From Streptomyces katrae (GTDB taxonomy: Bacteria > Actinomycetota > Actinomycetes > Streptomycetales > Streptomycetaceae): a stretch of DNA of 64,000 bases. Under the pieces are notes generated by a model. It saw nothing but the letters and a program-made list of their open reading frames with translations, made no database searches and was not told the origin of the DNA. The position numbers and the translations under genes were made by a program. The DNA is taken from contig NZ_CP020042.1 of NCBI RefSeq assembly GCF_002028425.1, positions 868,001 through 932,000 on the forward strand, read 5' to 3'. Below are positions 32,266 to 40,236 of this stretch, piece after piece; position 1 is the stretch's first letter; each line of letters starts with the position of its first letter.

Positions 32266-32315
32266 TGACCGGGCCGGGCACCGCGTTGTCGGTGGCCCCT
32301 GGCACAGTGCACCGC

Positions 32316-32960
32316 ATGAACGAGAACATGCACGGCGCCGCGCTGATCGACCGGGTGATCGAACGGGTCCGGGAGCAGGGCTGGCCCACCTGCGAGGCCC
32401 CGGACCTCGACGAGCCGGTGCCGGTCGCGCCCGAGGTGCTCGACCGGCTGACGCTGCCCGGCGGCCGGCCGCTGCCGCCCAGCCTGCGCCGCTGGCTGGC
32501 CTTCGACGGCTCCTGGCTCGCCCGCGTCGGCTGGTACGAGGACCCGTCCGAGCCGGTCCTCGGCGACCGGGGGCTGGGGGCGACGGCGGAGTGGATGTAC
32601 GGCTCCGGCGACGGCATGGCCTCCATGTTCGGCGACTTCGAGGAGCTGCTGCCCGCCGTGTGCCTGCCACTGGTCGGCGGCTGCGACTCGCGCCGCCTGC
32701 TCTACCTGGGCTCCCCGGACTCCACGGGCGAGTACCCGGTACTGGTGACCGACATCGACGACCTGCCGTACGTGGCCGTGATGTATCCCGGACTCGACGT
32801 GTACCTCGCGGACCTGGCCGAAGTCCTGGACCTGGACTCCGACACCTACACCTCGCTCGCCGGACATCCCGAGTACGCCGCGCGGATGGCCGAGCACGCG
32901 GAGAACACCGGACTCGGTGCGGACGGGCTGGAGTTCCACGAGCTCGACCTCTTCGACTGA
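32316..32960 (+). CDS. SMI1/KNR4 (SUKH)-like protein
   Basis: A 214-residue acidic protein. The segment LPPSLRRWLAFDGSWLARVGW, the central PAVCLPLVGGCDSRRLLYLG and the late strand VLVTDIDDLPYVAVMYPGLD fit a SUKH-fold protein. SUKH members are often immunity proteins against nuclease or modifying toxins, or protein-interaction modules. No toxin gene is adjacent. It directly precedes the RNA-repair operon on the same strand, with an 89-bp gap. Confidence 0.6.
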   Translation: MNENMHGAALIDRVIERVREQGWPTCEAPDLDEPVPVAPEVLDRLTLPGGRPLPPSLRRWLAFDGSWLARVGWYEDPSEPVLGDRGLGATAEWMYGSGDGMASMFGDFEELLPAVCLPLVGGCDSRRLLYLGSPDSTGEYPVLVTDIDDLPYVAVMYPGLDVYLADLAEVLDLDSDTYTSLAGHPEYAARMAEHAENTGLGADGLEFHELDLFD

Positions 32961-33049: not shown

Positions 33050-34879
33050 ATGCGTACGCACTACCCCCGCACCGCGCACCTGCCGTGGTCCCCCGGAGCC
33101 ACGGCGGACGACGTGCGCGCCCGCGGGACGGCAGCGCTGGCCGGGCGGGAGGTGGTGGTCACCGAGAAGCTCGACGGGGAGAACACCACCCTGTACGCGG
33201 ACGGGCTGCACGCCCGCTCCCTGGACTCCGGCCACCACCCCTCCCGTGCCTGGGTCAAGGCCCTCCAGGGCCGGATCGGGCCGCGGATACCGGAGGGCCG
33301 GCGGATCTGCGGGGAGAACGTGTACGCCCGTCATTCGCTCGGCTACGGGGAACTCGACAGCTGGTTCTACGGGTTCTCGGTGTGGGACGGCGACCACTGC
33401 CTGGACTGGGACCGCACCGTCCGGTTCCTGCACGGTCTCGGCGTCCCCGTACCCCGGGTGCTGTGGCGCGGGACCTACGACGAACGCGCCCTGCGCCGGC
33501 TGCGGATCGACACCTCCCGGCAGGAGGGGTACGTCGTCCGTACGACGGCCGGCTTCGACCGTGCGGACTTCGGGCGGTACGTGGCCAAGTGGGTGCGCGG
33601 CGGGCACGTGCGCACCGACACGCACTGGATGTACGCGCCCGTGGTGGTCAACGGGCTCGGCCCCGCCGCCCCGCTGTGGGCCGTCCGCTCCGGGGCGGAC
33701 CCCGACGCCGGTGGGCTGCTGTCCGCCCTTGGCATGGACGCGGCGGTCCCCCCGCAGGACGAGGCGGCCGTCGCCGCGGTCACGGCCCGGCTCGACGGCG
33801 CCGGGCGCACCGGGGAGGCCCGGCTGGCCGGCGTCCTGGCCGCCGCCCTGCGCCGCGAGCCCCGGGCCACCCTCGGGGCCCGGCTCGCGGCGGGGCCGCT
33901 CGGGATGCGGACGGCGCGGCGGGTGGCGGACCTGGTGGGGCTGTACCCGGTGCTGCGCAGGCCCTTTCCGGAGGAGGAGCGGCGGGCCGGGCTGGTCCGG
34001 CTGGCCGCGGCGGCCGACCTGGGGGTGCTGCACGCCCTGGCGGCGGCCCTGCCGGAGCTGTCGGCCGGGGAGGCCGAGTGCGTGGAGTGGTCCGCGCTGT
34101 GCGCCGAGGAGGCCGGCCTGCTCGGGCCGGACCCGCTGGGCCCGCTGCGGGCCGGGATGCGCGAGGCCCTGGGCGCTCTGGACCCCGACGCCGCCGACCG
34201 CTGCTGGGCGGAGGCACGCGAGGCCTTCGGCCGGGGTGCGCTGGCCGCCGCGCACACCACGTCCGCCGCGTCTGCCACCGTCTCTGCCTCCACCGTGTCT
34301 GCCTCCGCCGCGGCCTCCGCCGCCTCGGCCGCCGTCGAGGAGGCCGTGGCCGCGACCTGGCGGTGGCGGGACGGGGCGGCGTACCCGCGGCTGGTCCAGC
34401 TGTGCGGGCCCTCGGGCAGCGGGAAGAGCACCTTCGCGCGGACCCTGACGGGGGTGGACGCGTACATCGCCCTGGACGACCTGCGCGAGGCCCGGGGTGC
34501 GCGCGCCGACCAGCGGGCCAACCCCGAGGTGCTGCGGGAGGGCCTGGACCGGCTCGACCGCGCCCTGGCCGCCGGGGGCACGGTCGTGTGGGACGCGACC
34601 TCCCTGACGGAGCAGCAGCGCGGCCTCGCCGGGGCCGTCGCACGGCGCCGGGACGCCCTGGTCACCCGGGTCGTGGCGCTGGTCGGCGAGGAGGAGCTGC
34701 GGCGGCGCAACGCGGTGCGCCCGCACCCGGTGCCGGAGCCCGTACTGGGCACGCAGCTGCGCCGGTTCAGCCCGCCCTACCCCGGGCAGGCGCACCGGAC
34801 CTGGTACGTCGGGGCGGGCGGCACGGTCGAGGACACGGCTGGCTCCCTGGCGGCGACCGGTGAGGGGGAGGCGTTCTGA
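33050..34879 (+). CDS. RNA ligase fused to a P-loop polynucleotide kinase
   Basis: A 609-residue RNA-repair enzyme. The N-terminal nucleotidyltransferase-ligase has motif I EKLDGEN (AMP-accepting lysine about residue 40), motif III SWFYGFSVWDGD, motif IV EGYVVR and motif V VAKWVRGG, as in Rnl2-type RNA ligases. A helical region of about 200 residues follows, ending in a Ser/Ala-rich hinge. The C-terminal kinase has Walker A GPSGSGKST (about 452-460), YIALDDLREARG and VVWDATSL, as in T4-type 5' polynucleotide kinases. It would phosphorylate 5'-OH ends and seal them to 3'-OH ends. GCAGGAG precedes the ATG. The stop shares a base with the next start. Confidence 0.88.
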   Translation: MRTHYPRTAHLPWSPGATADDVRARGTAALAGREVVVTEKLDGENTTLYADGLHARSLDSGHHPSRAWVKALQGRIGPRIPEGRRICGENVYARHSLGYGELDSWFYGFSVWDGDHCLDWDRTVRFLHGLGVPVPRVLWRGTYDERALRRLRIDTSRQEGYVVRTTAGFDRADFGRYVAKWVRGGHVRTDTHWMYAPVVVNGLGPAAPLWAVRSGADPDAGGLLSALGMDAAVPPQDEAAVAAVTARLDGAGRTGEARLAGVLAAALRREPRATLGARLAAGPLGMRTARRVADLVGLYPVLRRPFPEEERRAGLVRLAAAADLGVLHALAAALPELSAGEAECVEWSALCAEEAGLLGPDPLGPLRAGMREALGALDPDAADRCWAEAREAFGRGALAAAHTTSAASATVSASTVSASAAASAASAAVEEAVAATWRWRDGAAYPRLVQLCGPSGSGKSTFARTLTGVDAYIALDDLREARGARADQRANPEVLREGLDRLDRALAAGGTVVWDATSLTEQQRGLAGAVARRRDALVTRVVALVGEEELRRRNAVRPHPVPEPVLGTQLRRFSPPYPGQAHRTWYVGAGGTVEDTAGSLAATGEGEAF

Positions 34880-37818
34880 TGCGCACCAGTGAACAGCTCT
34901 ACCACCAGGTCCGCTGGGACCCCCGCTTCGATCCGGCGCGGTTCACGCTCGGGCTGCTCCAGCGCGGGGCCGCCCCCAAGCGGGTGCCGCTGCCCTCCTT
35001 CGTGCCGGGCGGGGACATCCCCTGGCACCGGGTGCTGTTCGTCGAGGCCGACGGCGAGCTGGTGTGGGACCGGGCCCGCGGGCTGGACCTGATCGACTCG
35101 ACGACGGCCGGGCGGGTGCGCGGCCGCCGGGTGCTGCCCGAGCCCTTCTTCACCGCGCGGACCCCGCACGCCTGGGACCCGGCGGACGGCGCCTGGCGGC
35201 CGGTCCAGGCGGGTCCGGCCGCGTACCCGCCGGCCCGGGTGCGGCTGCTGACCTGGAACACCCTGTGGGACCGGTACGACGCCCCCCGCATCGCCACCGC
35301 CCGGCGCAGGCCGATGCTGCTGGCGGACCTGGCGGCGGCCGACGCCGATGTGATCGCCCTCCAGGAGGTGGAACCGGCCCTGCTCGCCCTGCTGCTGGCC
35401 GAGCCGTGGGTGCGGTCCGGGTACACCCTGGGCACCGATCCGGACGGCGCGGACGTGGCGGACAGCGGGCTGCTGGTGCTGAGCCGGCTTCCGGTGCGCG
35501 AGGCGGGGCTGCACGTGCTGGGCCGGCACAAGGCGGTCGCCGCCGTCGCCGTGGACACGGCCGGCGGACCCCTGGCCGTCGCCGCGACGCACCTCAGCAG
35601 CGACCACTCCGAGAACGGCGCGGGCCGCCGGGTGGCCGAACTGGCCCGCCTGGCCGAGGGGCTGGGCGGGATCGGTGCGGGCCTCGCGCTGCTCGGGGAC
35701 TTCAACGACGGCCGCACCGGCGCCGAGGGGCCTGCGGCCGCGCTGGGGCTGCGGGACGCCTGGGCGGAGGTGCACGGCCCCGCCGACGACACGCCCACCT
35801 TCGACCCCGGGGTCAATCCGCTGGCCGCGGTCGGCTCCCTGACGGGACGGGCGGGCCGGATCGACCGGATCCTGCTCTCCTCGGGCGCGGGCGCCCGGGT
35901 GCGGGAGGCCGCGCTGCGGGGCGACTCCCCCGCGCCGGACGGGCTGTTCCCCTCCGACCACTTCGGGGTGGAGGCCACCGTGGAGTATGGGGCGACCGAC
36001 GCGGGCGACGCGCTGCCGGGCGAGGCGGCGACCACGCGGACGGCCGTGGCCTGGCTCCCGCCGCACGATCCGGCGGTCGAGGAGCTGCGCCGGGCCCACG
36101 ACCCCGGGGTGGCGCGCTGGCCGGCGCACGTCAACCTGCTGTTCGGCTTCGTACCGGAGTCCTCCTTCGCGCGGGCGCTGCCCCTGCTGGCCGAAGCCGC
36201 GGCGCAGGGGCGGCCGTTCACTGCCCGGCTGGACGGCGTGCACTCCTTCGGGCGCCGCGAGGACGCCGTGCTGTGGCTGGACCCGGCGGCCGGTGAGGGC
36301 GGGGACGGCCCCTGGCAGGAGCTGCGCCGGGCCCTCGCCGACCGCTTCCCGGGCTGCCGGGGCCGCTCCACGGGATGGACCCCGCACCTGACGCTGGGCC
36401 GCAGCGGGGACCCCCGGCGCGCGGAACGGGAGTTCGCGCAGCGTCTCGGACCGGGCGGGCGGACGGCCCGCGTCGGGGAGCTGGCGGTGCTGTCGCGACG
36501 CGGGGACGGCCCGATGCGGGTCCGGGCGGTCGTGGAACTGGGTACCGGCACCTGGCGGTGGGCGGAACCGGAGGCAACGCCCGGCGAACCGGCCGACCCC
36601 CCGGAGCCGTCGCGCCCCCGAGCCCCGGAGCCCCCTCGGCCGGCGGAGGCCGGCGGTCCGGAGAACGCCCGGAAGGCTTCCGGCTCCCGGGCGGCGGGCG
36701 GCGTCGTGGGTGTGGGGGACGCTGAGCGGATCACCGCGCGGCTCGCGGGGGCGCTGTCCGGGGCGGTGGTGCGGGTGGCCGGGTCGCGGGCGATGGGGTG
36801 TGCCCTGGCGGGGGCCGACCTGGACCTGGTGGCGGTGCTGCCGGGGGCGGCCGACGCCGGGGCGGTGCGGGCACGGGTGGCGGCCGCGCTCCCGGAGGCG
36901 GAGCGGCTGCGGGAGGTGACGGGGGCGCGGGTGCCGGGGCTGCGGCTGCGTGCGTCCGGGCTCGACGTGGACCTGGTGGTGGTCGGGGCCGGCGGGCTGG
37001 ATCCGGCCCGGGCCGTGGAGCGGCGGGCCGAGCTCGGCGAGGCGGCCGCGGTGGCGCTGAGCGCCGTCTCCGACGCCGAAGCCGTACGGGCGGCCGTGGG
37101 CGCGGAGCACGCCGCCTTCGCCGGGCTGGCGCGGGAGGTCAAGGCCTGGGCGCGGGCCCGGGGGCTGGACTCGGCGCCCTTCGGCGGCCTGCCCGGGCTG
37201 GCCTGGACGGTGCTGGCGGCGCGCACGGTACGGGAGGCCGCGGACCGGTCGCCCGCGGCGCTGCGGCGGGAGTTCTTCGGGACGTGGGCCGCCTGGGACT
37301 GGAGCGAGCCGGTGTCCCTGGACCCGGAGGCCGACGCCGCTCCGGGTCCGGACCCGGTCACGGTCCTGACGCCCTCGGCTCCGGTCCGCAGCTGCACCGC
37401 CCAGGTGGGGGCGGGCCTGCGGGACCTGCTGGTCCGGGAGCTGTACGAGGCCTGGGAGCGGCTGGAGGCGGAGCCGGAGGGACTGCTGCCGGCGGCCCCG
37501 CCGCACCGGCGGCACGCCGCCTGGGCGGTGGTGAGCGTACGGGCGGACACGGCGCGGGAGTTCGAGGAGCACCTGGGCCGGGCGCGGGGCCGGATGCGGG
37601 GACTGCTCGCCGCCCTGGAGGAGGCCGGGCTCCCGGAGGCCCACGCCTGGCCGCGCCCCTTCGCACGCTCCGGGACCCTGGCCCGCTACGCGGTCGGCCT
37701 GGGGTCCGCCCCGCCGGACGCCACCGCCCTGGCCGCCCTCACGGGCCCCTGGGCGGCGACCCTGCCGGGGGTGACGGTGACCCGCGCGGACGGCGGCGAG
37801 GTCCCGGACCTGCCCTGA
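34879..37818 (+). CDS. Multidomain RNA-repair protein: DUF504, EEP phosphatase/nuclease, 2H phosphoesterase, poly(A)-polymerase-type nucleotidyltransferase
   Basis: A 979-residue fusion. A DUF504 domain (1-75) contains WDPRFDPARF and IPWHRVLFVE. An endonuclease/exonuclease/phosphatase domain (121-365) carries LLTWNTLW, ALQEVEP, GDFND and SDHFGVE. A 2H (LigT-like) phosphoesterase has HVNLLFGF (417) and HLTLGR (503). After a proline-rich linker comes a nucleotidyltransferase with GSRAMGCALAGADLDL (635) and VDLVVV, continuing with AREVKAWARARGL, GLPGLAWTVLAAR and VTVLTPSAPVRSC, as in eukaryotic-type poly(A) polymerases. These activities would remove blocked or cyclic-phosphate ends and add nucleotides before sealing. 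ATG overlaps the ligase-kinase stop by one base. Confidence 0.87.
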   Translation: MRTSEQLYHQVRWDPRFDPARFTLGLLQRGAAPKRVPLPSFVPGGDIPWHRVLFVEADGELVWDRARGLDLIDSTTAGRVRGRRVLPEPFFTARTPHAWDPADGAWRPVQAGPAAYPPARVRLLTWNTLWDRYDAPRIATARRRPMLLADLAAADADVIALQEVEPALLALLLAEPWVRSGYTLGTDPDGADVADSGLLVLSRLPVREAGLHVLGRHKAVAAVAVDTAGGPLAVAATHLSSDHSENGAGRRVAELARLAEGLGGIGAGLALLGDFNDGRTGAEGPAAALGLRDAWAEVHGPADDTPTFDPGVNPLAAVGSLTGRAGRIDRILLSSGAGARVREAALRGDSPAPDGLFPSDHFGVEATVEYGATDAGDALPGEAATTRTAVAWLPPHDPAVEELRRAHDPGVARWPAHVNLLFGFVPESSFARALPLLAEAAAQGRPFTARLDGVHSFGRREDAVLWLDPAAGEGGDGPWQELRRALADRFPGCRGRSTGWTPHLTLGRSGDPRRAEREFAQRLGPGGRTARVGELAVLSRRGDGPMRVRAVVELGTGTWRWAEPEATPGEPADPPEPSRPRAPEPPRPAEAGGPENARKASGSRAAGGVVGVGDAERITARLAGALSGAVVRVAGSRAMGCALAGADLDLVAVLPGAADAGAVRARVAAALPEAERLREVTGARVPGLRLRASGLDVDLVVVGAGGLDPARAVERRAELGEAAAVALSAVSDAEAVRAAVGAEHAAFAGLAREVKAWARARGLDSAPFGGLPGLAWTVLAARTVREAADRSPAALRREFFGTWAAWDWSEPVSLDPEADAAPGPDPVTVLTPSAPVRSCTAQVGAGLRDLLVRELYEAWERLEAEPEGLLPAAPPHRRHAAWAVVSVRADTAREFEEHLGRARGRMRGLLAALEEAGLPEAHAWPRPFARSGTLARYAVGLGSAPPDATALAALTGPWAATLPGVTVTRADGGEVPDLP

Positions 37819-37843
37819 GCCGGTGGCGGCCGCACATCCGCTC

Positions 37844-37866
37844 CCCCGGCCCTCCGCGGGCCGGGG
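37844..37866 (+). terminator. Terminator hairpin after the RNA-repair operon
   Basis: CCCCGGCCC and GGGCCGGGG form a perfect 9-bp stem around TCCGC, 26 bp after the stop codon of the multidomain gene and before the MITE-like element. Confidence 0.6.
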
Positions 37867-37907
37867 CGGGCGGCCGAACTCCCGGCCGTGCTGCCGTTGT
37901 TGCCGCT

Positions 37908-38061
37908 AGGGCCTGTCGTCAAAGTCCCGCCTGCCCCGCGACGCTCCCCCAGCTACCGCTGGGAGGTGCCCCCAGGCACGCACTCTCGCCGCACCGGGAG
38001 CACGCACCAGACGGCGCGGGGCCGCCCTCCGGGCGACGACGGGACTTTGACGACAGGCCCT
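37908..38061. mobile_element. 154-bp MITE-like element with perfect 21-bp terminal inverted repeats
   Basis: The ends 37908-37928 and 38041-38061 are perfect reverse complements over 21 bp (AGGGCCTGTCGTCAAAGTCC... at the left). The 112-bp interior has no coding capacity and contains a nested hairpin, CCCAGC-TACC-GCTGGG (37938-37953). No clear target duplication is visible. Size, perfect ends and lack of a gene match a miniature inverted-repeat element mobilised in trans by a transposase. It sits between the RNA-repair operon and a dehydrogenase gene. Confidence 0.8.
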
Positions 38062-38101
38062 GGTGGCGTCCCGCGCGGACCCGGCCGGGGCGGCGGCACG
38101 G

Positions 38102-39052
38102 TCAGAGGTCGATGACGATCTTTCCGGCGGTGTGGCCGGCCTGGCTGAGGGTGAAGGCCTCGGCGAGGCCGGAGAGCGGGAAGGTCTCGGCCACCGTGAC
38201 CGTCAGCCGGCCCTCGTCGGCGAGCCGGGCCAGTGCCGCAAGGTCCTCGCCGACGGGGCGGACCCACATCCACTGGCCGCCCGCCCCCAGCACCGTGTGG
38301 TCGGCGATGGAGGCGTGCCGGCCGCCGTCGGCGAGCACGGCCGTGGTGACGTCCAGCACCCCGCCGACGAAGTCGGCGACCACGCTCACGCCCTGCGGGG
38401 CCAGGGCCCGGACCCGCTCGGTGAGCCCGTCCCCGTAGGCGACGGGCTCGCAGCCCAGCTCCCGCAGCCGGTCGTGGTTGCGGGGCGAGGCGGTGCCGAT
38501 GACGCGGGCGCCGAGGGCGCGGGCGATCTGCACGCCGAACGAGCCGACCCCGCCCGCGGCGCCGTGGACGAGGACGGTGTCCCCCTCGCCGGTGCCCAGG
38601 CGGGTCAGCAGCTGATAGGCGGTGAGCCCGGCCAGCGGAAGGCCGGCCGCCTGCCGCCAGTCGAGCGAGGCGGGCTTGCGCGCGAGGGCCCGTACGGGAA
38701 CGGAGACGAACTCGGCGAAGGTGCCGCCGTGCACATAGTCCTTGCGGGCGTACGCGATCACCTCGTCGCCTTCCGCGAACTCGGGGACGTCGATGCCGAC
38801 CCGCTCGACGGTCCCGGCCACGTCCCAGCCGGGGACCACCGGGTACACGACGTCCATGAGGCCGTCGAGACCGCCCGCCATGATCTTCCAGTCGACGGGG
38901 TTGACCCCCGCGCACCGCACGCGGACGAGGACCTCGCCGGGGGCGACCTTGGGGACCGGGAGCCTGGTCTCGGCCAGCACCTCCGGCCCGCCGTACGTCT
39001 CGTACGCCATCGCCCGCATCGTGGGCCGACCGTCCTGGGGTTCCTGTGACAT
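38102..39052 (-). CDS. Zinc-independent medium-chain NADP-dependent alcohol dehydrogenase / quinone oxidoreductase
   Basis: A 316-residue MDR-family reductase. It has the GroES-like N-terminal domain (YETYGGPEVL, VRVRCAGVNPVDWKI, VPGWDVAGTVERVG) and a Rossmann domain with VLVHGAAGGVGSFGVQIARALGARV. The catalytic zinc ligands of true alcohol dehydrogenases are missing, as in quinone or enone reductases. It ends with AGHTAGKIVIDL, a standard C-terminus. GAGGG precedes ATG 39052. It separates the two parts of the RNA-repair island and has no evident link with them. Confidence 0.92.
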   Translation of the reverse strand: MSQEPQDGRPTMRAMAYETYGGPEVLAETRLPVPKVAPGEVLVRVRCAGVNPVDWKIMAGGLDGLMDVVYPVVPGWDVAGTVERVGIDVPEFAEGDEVIAYARKDYVHGGTFAEFVSVPVRALARKPASLDWRQAAGLPLAGLTAYQLLTRLGTGEGDTVLVHGAAGGVGSFGVQIARALGARVIGTASPRNHDRLRELGCEPVAYGDGLTERVRALAPQGVSVVADFVGGVLDVTTAVLADGGRHASIADHTVLGAGGQWMWVRPVGEDLAALARLADEGRLTVTVAETFPLSGLAEAFTLSQAGHTAGKIVIDL

Positions 39053-39159
39053 GGGTGTGCCCTCTCGGTGAACCGGCGGAACCACCCCTTCCCCATCCCA
39101 CCACGAACCGGGCGGCGGGCCCCGGCGCAACACGGGCGGCGCCGGAACCGGCCGCCGGC

Positions 39160-40236
39160 TCACTCGTACTCGGTGCCGCCCTTGCGCGTCAGGTAGGCCG
39201 GGCTGACCGCCTTGGCGATGGCCCGGCCGCCGACGACCGGGCTGTACCGCTCGGTGGCCGGCCGGATGACCACGCCCTCGCGCAGGTGCAGGCCCCGCCC
39301 GGAGACGGTCTCCCGCCCACTGGCCAGCTCCAGCACGGTCTCCAGGGCGTAGGGCCCCGTGTAGAGCCGGGGCACCAGCGGGAGTTCGCCGTCCTGCAGC
39401 ACCTGCGCCGGGTCCAGCCAGCGCACCTGCCCGTCCATCTCGGCGCAGACGTCGAAGACGGCGAACCCGGGCGGGGTGTCGGCGGCCCGGGCCTGCGCCC
39501 CGTACGGCAGGTCCTGCACGCCGGCTCCGTAGACCTCGCCGAAGATGCCGACCCGGGTCGCGCCGAGCCGCTCGGCGAGCCGGGCGGCGGCCCGCTCGAC
39601 GCCGTGGCCGCGGACGGCCCGCCAGTAGACGTTGCGCTCCTCCTCCTTGAGCGCCAGGCCGCGTGCGCCGAAGCCCTTGGAGGAGACGAGGACCCGGCCC
39701 TCCTCGGCCAGATAGGTGACCAGGCAGGCCGTGCCGTGAAGCTTCTCGGTCAGGACGATGGGCTCCCCCGGCTCGAAGATCCCCGGGTAGCGCTGCAGGT
39801 TCTCGATGTCCACCCAGGGCAGCAGCCCGGGCGCCGCCTCGACCTCTCCGCTCATCGACGTGGGGACCGGTGGCGACCATTTGACGATGCCCAGGGCCTC
39901 GGCGAAGTCGGTGCCCTCCTTCGCGGCCAGCTCCAGGTCCGTCCCGTCGAGCGCACGGGGCCGGCACACCAGCCCCTGCGAGAGCTCTCCGCGCAGCCGG
40001 ACCGCCCGGACCCGGTCGTGGGAGCTTCCGGCCAGCCGGCCGGTGAGGCCCAGCTCCTCGATGAGGGCGGCGGGCAGGACGGCCTGTTCGGGGATGTAGA
40101 GGGCCAAGTCCCCGGTCCGGTAGGCGCCCTTGGCTACGACGGCCCGGTAGAGGCCCACCTGGGCCAGCTCCAGGGCGTCGGCGTTCGGATGCGGGTGGAT
40201 GGTGAGTTCCTCCACGGTGACGCGCAGGGTGGACAT
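39160..40236 (-). CDS. RNA ligase, DRB0094 (DraRnl) family
   Basis: A 358-residue ATP-dependent RNA ligase. The N-terminal OB-like domain (LRVTVEELTIHPHPNADALE, YRTGDLALYIPEQAVLP) is followed by a nucleotidyltransferase domain with motif I EKLHGT (lysine 165), FGEVYGAGVQDLPYG, FAVFDVCAE, EGVVIR and AIAKAVSPAYLTRK. The N-terminal OB domain together with KLHG instead of KxDG defines the Deinococcus DRB0094 family, which seals nicks with 3'-OH and 5'-phosphate on an RNA strand. GGAG precedes ATG 40236. It is a second, unrelated ligase 1.3 kb from the ligase-kinase operon, on the opposite strand. Confidence 0.9.
   Translation of the reverse strand: MSTLRVTVEELTIHPHPNADALELAQVGLYRAVVAKGAYRTGDLALYIPEQAVLPAALIEELGLTGRLAGSSHDRVRAVRLRGELSQGLVCRPRALDGTDLELAAKEGTDFAEALGIVKWSPPVPTSMSGEVEAAPGLLPWVDIENLQRYPGIFEPGEPIVLTEKLHGTACLVTYLAEEGRVLVSSKGFGARGLALKEEERNVYWRAVRGHGVERAAARLAERLGATRVGIFGEVYGAGVQDLPYGAQARAADTPPGFAVFDVCAEMDGQVRWLDPAQVLQDGELPLVPRLYTGPYALETVLELASGRETVSGRGLHLREGVVIRPATERYSPVVGGRAIAKAVSPAYLTRKGGTEYE

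Follow-up and report, generated by a model that had tools for sequence, protein, structure and literature searches.

This analysis concerns a window of 64,000 nucleotides from Streptomyces katrae (RefSeq assembly GCF_002028425.1, contig NZ_CP020042.1, positions 868,001 to 932,000; host genome 8.06 Mb, 3 contigs) and, within it, two adjacent forward-strand genes, here called A and B, which are interpreted as a probable operon for RNA repair. Gene A (33050..34879, 609 aa) encodes, according to profile matches and alignments, a predicted fusion of an RNA ligase, a dead HD domain and a polynucleotide kinase. Gene B (34879..37818, 979 aa) encodes a protein with MJ1316, EEP, 2H and poly(A) polymerase (PAP) domains. 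Base 34879 is common to both genes, being the last base of the TGA stop codon of A (34877..34879) and the first of the ATG of B. This one-base sharing had been noted in the original prediction, which was made from the sequence alone, and coordinates, reading frames and profile matches confirmed A and B as real genes. The same prediction had described a complete RNA repair island which also contained a second RNA ligase (C) and was preceded by a SUKH-like gene. This interpretation is partly supported: the domains and the conserved A-B pair were recovered, whereas C and the upstream open reading frame (ORF) both fall outside the unit, so that a three- or four-gene island is not upheld.

Architecture of the two proteins

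Residues 33-182 of A (33146..33595) matched the Pfam family RNA_ligase (PF09414, E 3e-33, 115.8 bits against a cut-off of 27) and residues 448-576 the Pfam kinase family AAA_33 (E 1.2e-21), the predicted 5'-OH polynucleotide kinase domain being delimited to residues 445-600 (34382..34849). The motifs EKLDGEN and GPSGSGKST, on which a ligase fused to a P-loop kinase had been proposed, are both present. The two ends of the proposed fusion are therefore confirmed, and to them is added a third, apparently dead HD domain linking A to HD-Pnk of Deinococcus. Ligase residues K40, D42, G43, E89, E159 and K180, as well as kinase residues K459, S460, D476, D515 and R557, were retained in all 35 relatives of A. 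The catalytic core by which the kinase of HD-Pnk is recognized is thus kept, and in a fold comparison the kinase model of A resembled the Clostridium thermocellum and T4 Pnk; the VIA-align rows for A span mainly residues 444-605, outside the HD part. Streptomyces venezuelae also has annotated close relatives of A.

Among the plasmid-record matches outside Actinomycetota, the closest to the ligase of A was DRB0100 of Deinococcus radiodurans (58.3% identity over 203 aa), which has 210 aa in total and consists of the ligase domain only. In T4 Rnl2 proper, the nucleotidyltransferase domain is followed by a separate C-terminal Rnl2 domain. In A, the residues from about 205 onwards align with HD-Pnk instead, which rules out Rnl2 proper. 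The earlier term ‘Rnl2-like’ is accordingly valid for the Pfam RNA_ligase family and not for Rnl2 itself; by alignment, the ligase part of A is classed as DRB0100-type, with the nucleotidyltransferase domain alone. Bacterial Pnkp was also rejected, as TIGR04075 matched the kinase only, with 33.6 bits against a cut-off of 750. Of a third and a fourth RNA_ligase match in the host genome, the third was judged by eye to be an ATP-dependent DNA ligase.

The HD assignment originated from a search of plasmid records with A, which yielded Deinococcus pairs of a ligase gene and an ‘AAA family ATPase’ gene. The pair of D. radiodurans MP1 was identified as DRB0100 and DRB0098 by matching published gene numbers (PMC1997131, PMC11833690 and PMC1274311) to gene order. 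DRB0098 comprises an HD domain and a kinase, DRB0100 is a ligase only, and A has both joined. Residues 205-427 of A (33662..34330) align with the HD domain of HD-Pnk plus the helical stretch after it. Using tblastn, a Deinococcus HD-Pnk matched the A gene of Embleya (query 12-405, 33% identity, 1e-11) and of Nonomuraea (query 117-405, 38.5% identity, 2e-18). When separately built alignments of A and of HD-Pnk were compared with hhalign, a probability of 86.6% (E 4.5e-6, 191 columns) was obtained.

The residues of the HD site were numbered according to D. radiodurans, and those of HD-Pnk were read from the alignment. H51, H81, D82, H107 and D173 are present in all ten HD-Pnk taken from plasmid records in which B had no match. 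In contrast, H51, D82, H107, H138, H140 and D173 were retained in none of 36 A proteins (35 relatives and the A of the window); H81 remains in 32 of them and H139 in 11. The loop bearing H107 is deleted in 34 of the 35 relatives. The run H138-H140 is less telling, since it varies among HD-Pnk and one of the ten has no histidine there. A thus fails the HD phosphohydrolase residue test of HD-Pnk and its HD domain appears dead, H81 being, as far as the alignment indicates, a fossil of the lost site. The intact HD domain of HD-Pnk gave weak, below-cut-off matches to the HD domain of CCA-adding and repair enzymes, and HD-Pnk of Runella is reported (Munir and Shuman) to be a 2',3'-phosphoesterase as well as a kinase. 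A therefore appears to lack the 3'-healing step that its ancestor performed. The dead domain probably persists to hold ligase and kinase together as a scaffold, or to offer B a docking face.

In B, all four of the domains originally named were found by Pfam: MJ1316 (2.7e-17), Exo_endo_phos (8.9e-16), 2_5_RNA_ligase2 (3.1e-32) and PAP_central (1.4e-8). Including C, every domain that had been named was recovered by profile search. The MJ1316 domain, formerly DUF504, comprises residues 1-65 (34879..35073) and matched PF04457 with 63.7 bits (cut-off 26.3); by this match it is a predicted recognition domain for RNA cyclic ends, putatively 2',3'-cyclic ones. The EEP phosphoesterase follows at residues 117-372 (35227..35994). 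Its catalytic set (Asn, Glu, His, Asp-x-Asn, Asp and Ser-Asp-His) is complete in all 49 B homologues aligned, and the eight residues are kept in all 38 B proteins of a Streptomyces genome sample described below.

The 2H phosphoesterase at residues 394-543 (36058..36507) carries H417-V-N and H503-L-T. Its class is defined by two H-x-T/S motifs. Both histidines are present in 49 of 49 homologues; the first motif reads H-V-N in each of the 29 actinobacterial rows, and H-I-N (12) or H-I-T (8) in the 20 cyanobacterial rows. The whole domain is absent from 10 of the 38 B proteins. The group lacking it forms one side of a tree branch (support 82/79), and a single 2H change was found in 80% of bootstrap trees, the tree holding the nine of these ten rows which were long enough. 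Most simply, this represents one loss and not ten. A revived HD domain as compensation was rejected, since A beside a 2H-less B (9 of 10 complete) also has a dead HD domain.

The C-terminal part of B (residues 607-977, 36697..37809) contains the nucleotidyltransferase, central and C-terminal domains of a canonical poly(A) polymerase together with its three catalytic aspartates. What had been called a ‘poly(A)-polymerase-type’ domain is thus present and is refined to a predicted whole poly(A) polymerase of the eukaryotic type. G635, S636 and D647 are kept in 38 of 38 B proteins, D649 and D698 in 37. The exception (locus L088) has lost catalytic aspartates (D649N, D698G); this single broken PAP belongs to the one EEP-PAP protein in the sample whose genome lacks A. 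Across homologues, the catalytic residues of ligase, kinase and EEP are therefore kept, and those of PAP are kept bar this one protein. No match to the RlaP nucleotidyltransferase model (PF10127) was found in B (Pfam, E up to 0.1), and the Pfam scan of A and B showed neither a metallophosphatase nor a Hen1 methyltransferase domain.

Shorter relatives of B were also seen. Fifteen short MJ1316-2H proteins were found; 14 come from genomes lacking A and one lies near the A-B pair of its genome. Partial B matches akin to them occur on Streptomyces plasmids, and one protein consists of MJ1316-EEP alone. Some B homologues are already annotated as ‘RNA repair domain-containing protein’.

Coupling of A and B and the limits of the unit

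For the distribution within the genus, 199 Streptomyces genomes were sampled, and ligases with a bit score above 110 were classed as A. MJ1316 was found in 55 and the A-type ligase in 40 of these genomes. An MJ1316 domain is encoded on the same strand within 3 kb downstream for 37 of the 40 A genes. The loci of the other 39 genomes were fetched in addition to the window, and wherever the downstream side could be read (39 of the 40 genomes) B follows immediately after the kinase end of A. The conservation of the pair in related genomes, on which the original prediction depended, was thus observed. In the remaining genome (G050) A reaches the edge of the contig and the downstream side is unreadable. 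In another (G116) contig ends interrupt A, yet the kinase piece lies directly before B, and in a third (G084) B can be read no further than its MJ1316 start. In G012, A is split within the HD region: the ligase and the first half of the HD domain lie 2.8 Mb from the kinase half (8.84 Mb versus 6.01 Mb on contig C1), which again directly precedes B. This split is either a rearrangement or an assembly error. At two loci (L074 and L025), A occupies two frames, the kinase being off-frame from ligase and HD, through either sequencing error or decay.

The A/B junction was between -14 and +6 bases in 32 of the 34 loci scored; in 23, as in the window, exactly one base is shared. In this sample, A accompanies every readable B whose PAP is intact, the orphan B being the one with the broken PAP, and EEP and PAP active-site residues are intact in every readable B beside A. 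Among 396 Actinomycetota genomes, the A-type ligase and MJ1316 occurred in the same three genomes only, all of them Streptomyces and one of them the host genome itself. Outside this genus, the A-B pair was found in Streptoalloteichus, Nonomuraea (two) and Embleya (two). Among the 120 matches listed for B, all homologues bearing an organism name were from Streptomyces.

The second ligase, C (39160..40236, reverse strand, 358 aa), was found where predicted, 1.3 kb beyond B. It lies 1341 bases past B on the opposite strand and matched NCBIfam TIGR02306 (RNA_lig_DRB0094) with 446.1 bits against a cut-off of 151.15. In the genus sample, ligases of 66.9 to 91.6 bits were assigned to the C class and weaker rows, several of 57 to 63 bits, were excluded. 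With this definition, 46 of 199 genomes carry C without A. In the 24 genomes with both, C lies within 25 kb of A in 10 and then always on the opposite strand; it is separated from A by more than 1 Mb in 7 and sits on another contig in the other 7. C as a third gene of the unit was ruled out by the 46 genomes without A and by the distance in 14 of the 24. Because DRB0094-type ligases occur in so many genomes without A, C probably serves an independent function. There may be a loose tie to A-B, given a similar closeness of ligases in D. radiodurans; co-occurrence of A and C gave an odds ratio of 3.7 (p 4e-4, kinship ignored). In D. radiodurans (L031, 7001-12867), a DRB0094-type ligase lies 2.1 kb past the ligase, PARG and HD-Pnk genes, on the opposite strand.

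Between B and C, a zinc-type alcohol dehydrogenase gene (38102..39052, reverse strand) also lies outside the unit; it was found with ≥ 80% identity in 11 of 55 fetched related loci, which include a few without A. The forward ORF upstream of A (32316..32960) was found in none of these 55. It had been taken for a SUKH-like gene, and neither SUKH nor any other family was matched, with E limits of 1 in Pfam and 0.1 in NCBIfam, although it may be a diverged SUKH member. The genes flanking A-B are not conserved. Just upstream of this ORF, TTGTCGGTGGC at 32286-32296 is similar to the PafBC promoter motif of the actinobacterial DNA-damage response. In the window, no Rfam match at gathering thresholds was found. 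Elsewhere, a Miltoncostaea plasmid carries an RNA ligase (L035, 5614-6663) with a possible, below-cut-off HNH domain in front and peptidyl-tRNA hydrolase genes nearby.

A predicted pathway for RNA end repair and its alternatives

We consider A-B, with a probability of about 0.6, to be a two-gene operon for RNA healing and sealing, in which B has replaced the HD phosphatase in 3'-end cleaning and adds refilling. The activities, their order and the substrate given here are those which homology, residue conservation and gene coupling would predict. A ribonuclease would cut RNA, probably tRNA, and leave one end with a 2',3'-cyclic phosphate and the other with a 5'-OH; tRNA as the substrate is a guess from general RNA repair biology (PMC7824862). 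MJ1316 of B would hold the cyclic end, in agreement with its description as a reader of cyclic ends in PMC6514570, where nucleotidyltransferases are also placed in RNA repair. The 2H domain, the EEP domain or both would then either open the cyclic phosphate and clear away the 3' phosphate or cut off the terminal nucleotide. PAP of B would restore missing nucleotides, most likely adenylates, the kinase of A would phosphorylate the 5'-OH and the ligase of A would seal the break. In this sequence of steps, B would supply the 3' step attributed to the HD phosphatase of Deinococcus-like HD-Pnk. The joint presence of intact EEP and PAP in every readable B with A fits trimming followed by refilling. 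ANGEL2, an EEP enzyme, converts 2',3'-cyclic phosphate ends into 2',3'-OH (PMC13247085); such processing by the EEP domain of B would explain the loss of 2H in some B proteins.

A more specific version is put forward tentatively and is less likely than not. It assumes a domain swap, by which an HD-Pnk fused to a ligase lost its HD 2',3'-phosphoesterase and 3' healing moved to B, giving a machine that trims, refills and seals; B or an equivalent would then be the kind of ‘missing factor’ needed by DRB0100 ligases.

Several observations weigh against the healing-and-sealing interpretation. According to PMC1997131, DRB0100 adenylylates itself, but no ligation of DNA or of RNA by it was obtained in vitro, nor of DNA when its operon partners were present, and the HD domain could not be shown to be the phosphatase in D. 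radiodurans. Sealing by A and the lost step are therefore not assured. When six more distant HD-Pnk were added to the hhalign comparison, the result dropped to 34% (E 4e-4, 130 columns), and the tie of A is therefore to the Deinococcus branch of HD-Pnk. The predicted model of A is of moderate quality (mean pLDDT 72). The dead HD domain and B probably came to be paired only once in evolution, so their correlation should not be counted as repeated evidence, and the absence of B near intact HD-Pnk refers to plasmid records and not to the chromosomes of those strains.

B also occurs without A. In Actinoplanes couchii no A was found within the fetched 10 kb on either side of B, and a conjugative plasmid of Calothrix carries a four-domain B homologue (L011, 7995-10970) without A. 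On that plasmid a dynamin-type GTPase gene lies near B, with no annotated RNA ligase within 8 kb on either side. Together with the four-domain homologues common in cyanobacteria, and with PAP being the canonical tailing enzyme, these loci would suit a B which acts mainly in 3'-end tailing and decay of RNA, EEP trimming and PAP tailing, with A in a separate 5'-end or ligation role in turnover. We regard this as rather unlikely, because in the Streptomyces sample a B with intact PAP always comes with A, and because MJ1316 and 2H indicate cyclic ends.

Furthermore, the nearest solved fold to EEP of B is TDP2; that ANGEL2 is missing from the 50 matches listed carries no weight. TDP2 removes protein from DNA or RNA ends and is not known to act on cyclic phosphate. 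This likeness is a further point against healing and sealing of RNA, and it is compatible with strand-break repair of DNA (or RNA/DNA) as in Deinococcus DRB0098-0100, in which EEP clears adducts, the kinase heals and the ligase seals. The region within 700 bases before A was searched for palindromes resembling LexA boxes and PafBC-like sites, and their counts exceeded those of plain shuffles: of 49 loci, 11 contain TTGTCRGTG with one mismatch (5.8% in shuffles), 16 contain GAACN4GTTC, also with one mismatch (13%), and 33 contain CGAACN4GTTCG with two mismatches (31%). A relatives are found in Deinococcus, where the operon is radiation-induced (PMC1997131, PMC1274311). The motif matches are scattered, however, several are one site common to related loci, and the shuffles ignore dinucleotides, so no clear conserved upstream site can be claimed. 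In addition, MJ1316, 2H and PAP are RNA families and DRB0100 failed to ligate DNA (PMC1997131). DNA repair is thus considered unlikely, although the TDP2 likeness and the above-chance motif counts may leave room for a role of A-B in DNA damage.

The patchy spread of A, in 40 of 199 genomes of the genus, and the wide link of RNA repair to conflict (PMC7824862, PMC6514570) would also suit an anti-phage or toxin-immunity module, with which the host mends tRNA cut by anticodon nucleases or bacteriocins. Such a role is compatible with healing and sealing of RNA and is judged improbable. In PADLOC, A, B and C had no match except a weak one of the kinase (E 0.005). In 50,697 phage records B was unmatched; A matched 30, none spanning 80% of A, and the 20 matches listed cover the ligase domain only. 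In viral contigs at least one EEP-only match for B and at least five kinase-only matches for A were found. The lack of conserved flanking genes likewise speaks against a conflict module.

Relation to known systems

Operons that combine such parts for RNA repair are already known as a class, and by inference A-B works like a healing-and-sealing system. Systems with MJ1316, 2H and nucleotidyltransferase domains have reportedly been surveyed by Burroughs and Aravind in 2016. They share with A-B the ligase, the kinase, the handling of cyclic ends and a nucleotidyltransferase (PMC6514570, PMC7824862), whereas this enzyme in A-B is a predicted eukaryote-type PAP without a match to the RlaP model. 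The bacterial Pnkp/Hen1 and Pnkp1-Rnl-Hen1 systems differ by the metallophosphatase and Hen1 methyltransferase, which were not found in A or B. The Deinococcus operon of DRB0100 and DRB0098, with or without the PARG gene DRB0099, has a homologous ligase, a homologous HD-kinase including the helical stretch, and the same order of ligase, then kinase. In Streptomyces, however, ligase and HD-kinase are fused, key HD residues are lost, the unit contains no PARG gene and B is added. The EEP domain of B shares fold and full catalytic set with both ANGEL2/CCR4 and TDP2 and differs from ANGEL2/CCR4 in being nearest in fold to TDP2. Unlike the eukaryotic nuclear poly(A) polymerases (PAP alpha, gamma), PAP of B is bacterial and stands behind MJ1316-EEP-2H. 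In the literature searched, which did not reach the 2016 survey, the fused ligase-kinase, the dead HD domain and the pairing with B were not described.

The pair A-B ties a radiation-induced operon of Deinococcus, whose ligase did not ligate in vitro (PMC1997131), to RNA-end enzymes of Streptomyces. It suggests that the DRB0100 ligase class acts on RNA and requires a 3'-healing partner, and it places a predicted eukaryote-type poly(A) polymerase within a bacterial protein of RNA-end domains. Since A relatives are found in Streptomyces venezuelae, nucleotide refilling in RNA repair would be directly testable in a tractable genus.

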